From Thiobacillus sp. (GTDB lineage: Bacteria; Pseudomonadota; Gammaproteobacteria; Burkholderiales; Thiobacillaceae), in the NCBI GenBank assembly GCA_016124745.1, contig WGNC01000004.1:62001-126000 (forward strand): 64,000 nucleotides of DNA, written 5' to 3'. Both the position numbers and the translations under genes were made by a program. Shown piece after piece: positions 47,762 through 57,749 of this stretch (its first letter is position 1; the number at the start of each line of letters is the position of its first letter). The notes beneath the pieces were generated by a model. It ran no database searches. It had not been told where the DNA came from and saw nothing but the letters and a program-made list of their open reading frames with translations.

Positions 47762-47780
47762 GCGTTCGTCACACCACACA

Positions 47781-47979
47781 CCGTTCGCGCTGAGATTGTC
47801 GAAGAAGGCAGTTACCTACGCACCGTTCGTGGTGAGCCTGTCGAACCACCTGCACGCAGTCGTAAGGTGTTGGCAGGTCCGCTGACCCTTGGCCGGGCTA
47901 CCCCCGGGGCAAGGGTCCGTAGTTCCGCGAATAACCTGACTACAACGAACAAGCCCTTCGAAAGGCTCAGGGCGAACGG
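47781..47979. repeat. Three copies of a 23-bp REP-like repeat, one inverted, around a second hairpin
   Basis: CCGTTCGCGCTGAGATTGTCGAA (47781-47803) and CCGTTCGTGGTGAGCCTGTCGAA (47823-47845) are direct copies; the third (47957-47979) is inverted. Between them GACCCTTGGCC / GGGGCAAGGGTC (47884-47917) forms another hairpin. The same 23-bp unit recurs at 56.5 kb. This unit resembles the widespread proteobacterial CCGTTCGCCCTGAGCTTGTCGAAGGG repeats. The function is unknown. Confidence 0.75.
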
Positions 47980-47999
47980 TGGTGAAGCAAGCGGCACCT

Positions 48000-55808: not shown

Positions 55809-56462
55809 ATGAAGTCAGTCGCGATGTGCGCCCTGTTGGCCCTGCTGCTACCCGTTGCCCTGTCTGCCGGACCGTCGAGGGCAGCAACCGACCTCAGTTT
55901 CGAAAGTGCTGCGCTGGTCAATGAGGGCAGCCTGCATTTTCTTGAAGCCGCACCGGCCAAAACGGTTCATCACCACCAGAACCACATTCTCATTGACCGC
56001 GACAGCCTTGATTCAGGATGGGTCAGCCTGACACAGTGCCACGACCATCTCGACGCCGTGCCCCTCGCGCAGATTACCTTTCGCGAAGGTTTCATTCGCA
56101 ACCTCAAGGTGGAGACCGCCGTCCACATCGAAGAAGCCTGGATTGAAGGCGCCAGCGTCCAGCTGCGCAACGTGGAACCCGGGGCAAGGCTGTGCCTGTC
56201 CGCCCAGACGCGGGCATTTCACGATACGGGCAACGGCTACTACAACCTGACCAATGGCCCCTACATGCGCAAGTTTCTGGACGGCTATTACCCGATGCAG
56301 GTGACGCTGGAAATCCGCTACCCGGCAGAACTGCTGAACCTGATCGATGTCACTCCCCCTGCCCAGCCGGGTTTTGCGCTCGACGAACACCCTGGTTTCA
56401 TTCGGGTGGACACCCTGTTCGAGGGTGAACTGCAGACACTGATTCAGTTTGAAAAGCCCTAG
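55809..56462 (+). CDS. Exported protein of unknown function
   Basis: The 217-residue protein has a signal peptide (MCALLALLLPVALSAGPSRAA, cleavage near residue 25). The mature part has LDSGWVSLTQCHDHLDAVPLAQITF, two or three scattered cysteines, and GYYNLTNGPYMRKFLDGYYPMQVTLEIRYP. I do not recognise a family; it is probably all-beta. Its TAG stop codon (56460-56462) is immediately followed by a MITE-like element and may be supplied by its target-site duplication. Confidence 0.65.
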   Translation: MKSVAMCALLALLLPVALSAGPSRAATDLSFESAALVNEGSLHFLEAAPAKTVHHHQNHILIDRDSLDSGWVSLTQCHDHLDAVPLAQITFREGFIRNLKVETAVHIEEAWIEGASVQLRNVEPGARLCLSAQTRAFHDTGNGYYNLTNGPYMRKFLDGYYPMQVTLEIRYPAELLNLIDVTPPAQPGFALDEHPGFIRVDTLFEGELQTLIQFEKP

Positions 56463-56642
56463 GGAAGCGCTGATTTATTCTGTTCGTGGTGAGCCCTTCG
56501 ACCATGCTCAGGAGAGCCCCGTCGAACGCTCTCCTGAGCATGGTCGAAGGGCGTGAACGGAATAAATAAGACAAAATCAATTACATGAAATGCCCCCTTC
56601 GCCAAGCTCAGGGCGAACGGGCCGAATTAATCAGCGCCTTCC
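56463..56642. mobile_element. MITE-like element with 18-20-bp terminal inverted repeats
   Basis: The left end GGAAGCGCTGATTTATTC (56463-56480) is matched by the reverse complement of the right end, GGAAGGCGCTGATTAATTC (56624-56642), with one indel and one mismatch. TAG is present on both flanks (56460-56462 and 56643-56645), consistent with a target-site duplication within CTAG. Inside is a perfect 24-bp inverted repeat (56493-56516 / 56529-56552) and copies of the 23-bp repeat seen at 47.8 kb. No transposase is encoded, so mobilisation would need one in trans. The exact ends are uncertain by a base or two. Confidence 0.7.
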
Positions 56643-56680
56643 TAGCGTCCGACGGAATCGAAGCGTTTCGGTAATTGCCA

Positions 56681-56725
56681 TTGATAACGGTTCGCATTCG
56701 CAGTATGATTACTGAAATCATCATT
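56681..56725 (+). promoter_or_regulatory. Promoter with Fur-box-like operator upstream of fbpA
   Basis: TTGATA (56681-56686) and TATGAT (56704-56709) are separated by exactly 17 bases, a near-consensus sigma-70 promoter. GATAACGGTTCGCATTCGC (56683-56701) matches the 19-base Fur consensus at 12 positions, and an overlapping dyad TGATT-N5-AATCA lies at the -10 region. Iron-dependent repression by Fur is likely. Confidence 0.65.
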
Positions 56726-56738
56726 CGAGGCCGTAATC

Positions 56739-57749
56739 ATGCTGAAGCCGAACACATTCCTTGCCGCCCTTGCCCTCACCTTTGCCAGCCTGCCGGTGCT
56801 GGCTGAAGAAGTCGTCGTGTATTCCGCGCGCAATGAACAGCTTATCAAGCCGTTGTTCGACACCTATGCGCGCGAGAGCGGAGTCAAAATCACGTTCATC
56901 ACCGACAAGGAGGGGCCACTGATGGCGCGCCTCAAGGCCGAAGGCAAGAACACCCCGGCGGACATGCTGCTGACCGTCGATGCCGGCAACCTGTGGCAGG
57001 CGTCGGAAGAGGGCCTGCTGCGCCCGGTCCAGTCGGGGACACTGCAGGCAAATGTGCCGGCCCACCTGCGCGATCCCGGCAGCGAGTGGTTCGGGCTATC
57101 GGTGCGCGCACGCACCGTGGTCTACAACACGGCCCGGGTGAAGCCGTCCGAACTGTCCACCTATGAAGATCTGGCCAGCCCGAAATGGAAGGGGCGCCTC
57201 TGTCTGCGCACCTCGAAGAAGGTCTACAACCAGAGCCTGGTTGCGATGATGATCTACGAGTACGGGGAAGACAAGACCGAAAATATCGTTCGCGGCTGGG
57301 TCGGCAATCTCGTCACCGCGCCCTTTCCAGACGACACCAAGGCGATGCAGGCCGTGGCCGCCGGGCAGTGTGATGTCACCCTGGTCAACACCTACTACTT
57401 TGGCCGGATGATGGAGAAAAGCCCCAATCTGCCGCTGGCGATTTTCTGGCCCAACCAGAATCTGACAAACAAGACCGCCGGCGTACACGTCAACATCTCC
57501 GGCGCCGGGGTCACGCGCTATGCCAAGAATCCGGGAGGCGCGCAACGCCTGCTCGAATGGCTTTCTTCCGACAAGGCGCAAAGCCTGTTCGCCGACGTCA
57601 ATCTGGAATATCCGGTCAACCCCGCTGTCGCGCCGGACAAGACCGTGGCAGCCTGGGGCAGCTTCAAGCAGAACCTCATCAACGTGAAGGAGGCTGGCAG
57701 CCTGCAGGCCCAAGCCGTGAAGTTGATGGATCGCGCCGGCTACAAATAG
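56739..57749 (+). CDS. fbpA: Ferric iron ABC transporter substrate-binding protein
   Basis: FbpA/FutA proteins bind Fe3+ in the periplasm and deliver it to an ABC permease. The 336-residue precursor has a signal peptide (FLAALALTFASLPVLAEE) and the iron-binding fold: VVVYSARNEQLIKPLFDTY (first Tyr ligand), ITDKEGPLMARLKAEG, and NTYYFGRMMEKS, which carries the pair of Tyr ligands. It is followed by permease and ATPase genes, with a putative Fur-controlled promoter in front. Confidence 0.92.
   Translation: MLKPNTFLAALALTFASLPVLAEEVVVYSARNEQLIKPLFDTYARESGVKITFITDKEGPLMARLKAEGKNTPADMLLTVDAGNLWQASEEGLLRPVQSGTLQANVPAHLRDPGSEWFGLSVRARTVVYNTARVKPSELSTYEDLASPKWKGRLCLRTSKKVYNQSLVAMMIYEYGEDKTENIVRGWVGNLVTAPFPDDTKAMQAVAAGQCDVTLVNTYYFGRMMEKSPNLPLAIFWPNQNLTNKTAGVHVNISGAGVTRYAKNPGGAQRLLEWLSSDKAQSLFADVNLEYPVNPAVAPDKTVAAWGSFKQNLINVKEAGSLQAQAVKLMDRAGYK

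Follow-up and report, generated by a model that had tools for sequence, protein, structure and literature searches.

A very probable IS5-type MITE at the stop codon of a Thiobacillus gene

The window analyzed here, a 64,000-nucleotide stretch of a Thiobacillus sp. contig, carries a short element directly downstream of a putative secreted protein gene. We consider it, with high confidence, to be a non-autonomous Thiobacillus MITE of the IS5 type, presumably mobilized in trans by an IS5-family DDE transposase and inserted at a YTAR target that coincides with the stop codon of its host gene. The sequence evidence for this reading covers the family, its ends, the length of its duplication, an empty site, and autonomous relatives. 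Positions 56459-56645 read as CTAG, a 179-bp core, and a second CTAG, with the following features in and around them:

55809 to 56462, plus strand: host gene, putative secreted protein of 217 aa, with its stop codon inside the left duplication
56459 to 56462, plus strand: left target-site duplication CTAG, whose TAG terminates the upstream gene
56463 to 56480, plus strand: left terminal inverted repeat, GGAAGCGCTGATTTATTC
56493 to 56517, plus strand: 5' arm of a perfect 25-bp internal stem, made of REP-like CCCTTCGAC..GCTCAGG units
56528 to 56552, plus strand: 3' arm of the 25-bp stem
56595 to 56618, plus strand: third REP-like unit, CCCTTCGCCAAGCTCAGGGCGAAC, a unit present outside MITEs too in the source genome
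56624 to 56641, minus strand: right terminal inverted repeat, GAAGGCGCTGATTAATTC
56642 to 56645, plus strand: right target-site duplication CTAG
56739 to 57749, plus strand: downstream gene, ABC-transporter substrate-binding protein (SBP_bac_6)

The element proper (56463-56641) has the properties of a MITE: at 179 bp it is shorter than 300 bp, it is bounded by terminal inverted repeats, it contains no transposase gene, CTAG stands on either side of it, and both dispersed copies and empty sites exist. Its 18-bp ends, GGAAGCGCTGATTTATTC and, on the opposite strand, GAAGGCGCTGATTAATTC, form an imperfect pair matching at 15/18 positions. The first-pass annotation had described a MITE-like element, a description that further copies, empty sites, and a transposase with matching ends now support. 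Some of its measurements changed: the 180-bp element is 179 bp long, the internal stem is perfect as described but spans 25 rather than 24 bp, the terminal repeats exist but are not near-perfect, and the unit duplicated on both sides is CTAG (4 bp, YTAR) rather than TAG. A chance repeat is ruled out by the RNA fold of the entire element (-102.8 kcal/mol, z = -11.7) and by the 78 BLAST matches of the element in its own genome. A conserved RNA was likewise rejected, as an Rfam search returned no match except tRNAs.

The 217-aa open reading frame terminates in frame at the TAG of 56460-56462, which bears out the earlier claim that the left TAG ends the secreted protein gene. The host protein has no Pfam or NCBIfam match. 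On the other side, a promoter-like site (56681-56709) lies 3' of the element, which is therefore located upstream of it.

Statistics over 151 elements allowed a true duplication to be told from an extension of the inverted repeats, which the palindromic CTAG alone could not do. The YTAR 4-mers at the two ends are identical in 93/151 elements, against 34.1 expected from 2000 permutations of the right ends (maximum, 50). At non-palindromic left sites (n = 123), there were 80 direct matches versus 2 inverted ones. Position by position, the excess is limited to the YTAR 4-mer itself, with a signal at positions 0 and 3 but not beyond. The duplication of the family is exactly 4 bp, with the consensus YTAR (C/T-T-A-A/G). 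An IS630/Tc1-type MITE, with its 2-bp TA duplication, was rejected, since the signal reaches positions 0 and 3 and so spans 4 bp.

The empty sites that the first-pass annotation had suggested looking for were found in other genomes of the genus. Among 19 orthologues of the host gene in other Thiobacillus genomes, 18 of them with a downstream gene traceable in full, the element is missing at this place in 19/19. Their intergenic spacers measure 69-126 nt, mostly 87-101 nt, with a single exception of 405 nt (L063); the window spacer of 276 nt comes to 93 nt once the element and one CTAG (183) are subtracted. Given the element-free orthologues and the matching spacer arithmetic, the window element is, on sequence comparison, a genuine insertion. 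The host protein ends in ..IQFEKP*, and its relatives have the same end residue. This supports the earlier proposal that insertion at CTAG spares the gene, which explains why it is tolerated. Most orthologues use TGA as the stop codon, and the host gene would have had a TAG stop before the insertion. A second empty site concerns a C24 copy (L010) located at the TAA of an S1C protease gene, whose element-free orthologues in other species (e.g., L378 and L380) end in the same AAC TAA. The 405-nt spacer of L063 (G010:C9), the same intergenic spacer, holds a different, unrelated insertion with an TAGGTCGGGTTTCAACCCGAC palindrome. At orthologous sites in two Thiobacillus species (L077, G035:C26, and L105, G006:C33), a family member sits at the same stop codon (TTAG); the two cores are clearly diverged, reflecting either an old shared insertion or a replacement at the same site.

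The transposase with the same ends that had been sought was found in other Thiobacillus genomes, not in the element's own. Two complete autonomous ISs have the family's ends, one (L070, 32-1251) with CTAA and the other (L138, 1001-2235) with CTAG on either side. Their reading frames of 338 and 330 aa, respectively, match NF033581 (transpos_IS5_4) at 2.6e-100 and 5.2e-104 (335 and 348 bits; cut-off, 140), and PF01609 and PF05598 are also present. By these profile matches, both encode IS5-family DDE transposases, and autonomous IS5-family elements with the ends and target of the MITE occur in other species of the genus. Ends and duplications of this kind are also found in annotated plasmid-borne ISs of the IS5 family, from Hydrogenophilus (TTAG) and Pseudomonas (CTAA). 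What the MITE and the IS have in common is the ends only; their internal sequences are unrelated. Several other candidates were set aside: the apparent ISs of 1.5-2.3 kb at L177, L215, L267, and L272 hold ordinary genes or lack a recognizable transposase, and L285 carries a glycosyltransferase. These are neighboring MITEs around genes.

No PF01609 or P0003-like match to a cognate transposase was found in the own genome, a draft assembly that may miss ISs, nor did T. denitrificans RG yield one at 1e-20. ISs commonly drop out of draft assemblies, and a cognate transposase in the same genome is usual for IS-derived MITEs but not strictly required, as MITEs can be orphaned. With their transposase not found there, the copies in the own genome look orphaned; they are also diverged and are probably inactive now. 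Most of the 137-bp copies in T. denitrificans RG show 97-100% identity, so amplification in that strain was recent. The own genome also harbors a second MITE subfamily, with ends TTAGGGAAGYCCTGAACAAGTCC (L013, L017, L023, L024, and L030). These ends match those of a third IS lineage, likewise of the IS5 family (L142, TAGGGAAGYCCTGAACAAGT).

A search for the paired ends, also suggested by the first-pass annotation, yielded dispersed copies, with at least 15 TIR-bounded copies of about 75 to 230 bp in the own genome. The end motif is present in 25/56 Thiobacillus genomes, and the reversed control motif is present in none. Outside the genus, exact end motifs were found in Nitrosomonas, Nitrotoga, Gallionellaceae, Desulfovibrio, Lachnospiraceae, and Synergistaceae, among others. 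The cores beneath these common ends fall into at least 25 unrelated types, among them TTCGAC..GCTCAGG, to which the window element belongs, GTCATTGCGAG in T. denitrificans RG and others, and a further type in Nitrosomonas. Many of the cores are hairpins, though not all: core-cluster representatives have a median folding z of -2.5, and 44% fall below -3. We speculate, giving the idea little weight, that one conserved IS5-type end frame (YTAR plus GGGARRCGCTGATTAATTC) could be common to at least five phyla and serve as a universal "shell," taking up unrelated cores specific to each host, often hairpins, again and again, and spreading with a mild stop-codon preference as a built-in safe landing.

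The window element resembles the IS5 family (IS5_4/NF033581; E. coli IS5) in its end type (GGAAG/GGGAA..CTGA..), in its 4-bp YTAR duplication, which is that of E. coli IS5 (PMC10359306), and in the DDE_Tnp_1 and DUF772 transposase of its full-length relatives. It differs in having no transposase gene and an unrelated, REP-like core. With bacterial MITEs (RUP, Correia/NEMIS, ERIC, Chunjie, and MITEAba12), it shares a length of 70-300 bp, terminal repeats, a duplication, non-coding content, a strong hairpin, and an intergenic location. However, RUP, NEMIS, and ERIC have TA at their termini (PMC2229807), in contrast to the YTAR and IS5-type ends found here. RAYT-associated GTAG REPs (PMC3733652) and pneumococcal BOX elements (PMC3049150) are reported to provide upstream genes with their stop codon, as does the window element, and the REP-like palindromic core is a further likeness. 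In those cases, the stop is described as part of the repeat, whereas here it is duplicated host target DNA. A literature search of incomplete coverage retrieved related stop-codon and MITE cases only, with no paper found on this family or on the argument that YTAR equals a stop, and a search for the core strings of the window element found nothing.

The REP-like core raises the question of whether the element is instead of the REP/BIME type and moved by a RAYT (Y1) transposase. The core does consist of REP-like palindromes that also occur alone, and GTAG REPs are reported to give open reading frames their TAG stops (PMC3733652). Nevertheless, this origin is very improbable, as DDE-transposase ISs have the MITE's ends and the element has 18-bp terminal repeats and a 4-bp duplication. 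Y1 transposases are not known to make such repeats with such a duplication. A REP/RAYT element would be a GTAG-tagged hairpin without duplication, associated with a Y1 transposase that carries the same repeat. The sole Y1 match in the own genome, a lone RAYT-like gene (L097, G000:C2:183215-183514), has another palindrome on its flanks, of the GGGCGCAATAAGCGAAGCGCATTGCGCC type, which represents a separate REP family of this genome.

Of 20 REP-like units in stretches sampled from the own genome, 11 lie outside TIR pairs, so the unit is a dispersed palindrome that is also used as a MITE core. This bears on the earlier suggestion that the element carries copies of the repeat at 47.8 kb through nesting or co-mobilization. 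The sharing is real but limited to the CCTTCGA..GGCTCAGG..GAACGG unit (47955-47981 plus degenerate copies). Nesting was rejected, as no terminal repeats or MITE ends were found at the 47.8-kb repeat, and a REP-like core found widely without MITE ends is the better explanation for the sharing. The region itself (47779-47981) is an inverted pair of REP-like units around about 150 bp with a second hairpin, located between genes.

The IS5-type MITE reading suggests the following pathway. An IS5-family DDE transposase would recognize the ends of approximately 18 bp, mobilize the MITE in trans, and make a 4-bp staggered cut at YTAR. The target here would have been the CTAG made up by the final codon of the upstream gene and its stop (CCC TAG), the junction before insertion reading GAAAAGCCCTAGCGTCCG. 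Gap repair would then double CTAG, keeping the stop on the left and copying it on the right, with the protein unchanged. In the upstream transcript, the REP-like palindromic core may form a very stable hairpin at the 3' end. Such a hairpin could have been retained as a transcription terminator or an mRNA-stabilizing 3' element rather than as neutral debris, in line with its strong fold and its position directly 3' of the stop codon and ahead of the promoter-like site. We consider this retention unlikely, however, since no intrinsic terminator signature was found at the window element, the hairpin is dispensable in 19 relatives, and core types vary widely beneath the same ends, many without a strong fold.

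Since YTAR contains TAR (TAA or TAG) on both strands, stop codons can be hit without special targeting. Any gene ending in Y-TAR would offer a non-disruptive target, and such sites would make up a large share of the tolerated targets in GC-rich genomes; selection against insertions within genes would account for the remainder of the pattern. Of 285 element ends, 52 have a TAR that terminates, in frame, an ORF of at least 100 codons, compared with 16 and 15 in the other two frames, which serve as the control because some of the ORFs are probably spurious antisense ones (e.g., L014, seemingly antisense to a hydrolase-like gene). Outside coding interiors, 38/106 insertions sit at stops (35%; simple, home-made gene calls on elements related by descent and sampled by end motif). 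Both counts could mean that stop codons are actively targeted, with some feature other than YTAR involved (termination-linked DNA structure or 3'-end topology, for instance). Yet 139/548 YTAR sites outside coding interiors are already stops in 864 kb of independent Thiobacillus sequence (25%; 25-26% over two genomes), although part of these 20-kb control stretches was chosen where elements were already known. Stops make up 12% of all YTAR sites in the same sequence. The excess over background has an odds ratio of only 1.6, with p = 0.17 for Thiobacillus insertions and p = 0.03 for all taxa, the latter against a taxonomically unmatched, Thiobacillus-only control. Active targeting thus appears distinctly unlikely. 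A first estimate of 35% versus 10%, which implied strong targeting, came from a control biased by the removal of actual stop sites and became 35% versus 25% with the independent 20-kb stretches. At L104, L136, L234, and L257, both duplication copies are the stops of two genes converging on the element, according to ORF calls of which some may be spurious. Such double stops are expected if YTAR was the shared overlapping stop of convergent genes.

Coding interiors hold about 20% of insertions versus 53% of YTAR sites, and target choice together with the purging of gene-disrupting insertions explains the stop-codon pattern. The stop-codon coincidence of the window element is not exceptional, since about one in four non-disruptive YTAR sites should show it. 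It provides a counted example of how the target motif of a transposon can alone render an insertion harmless, the duplication regenerating the stop. In GC-rich genomes, about one in four tolerated IS5-type insertions would then be predicted to lie on stop codons without special targeting, a figure that is a useful null expectation for claims of "safe-harbor" insertion.
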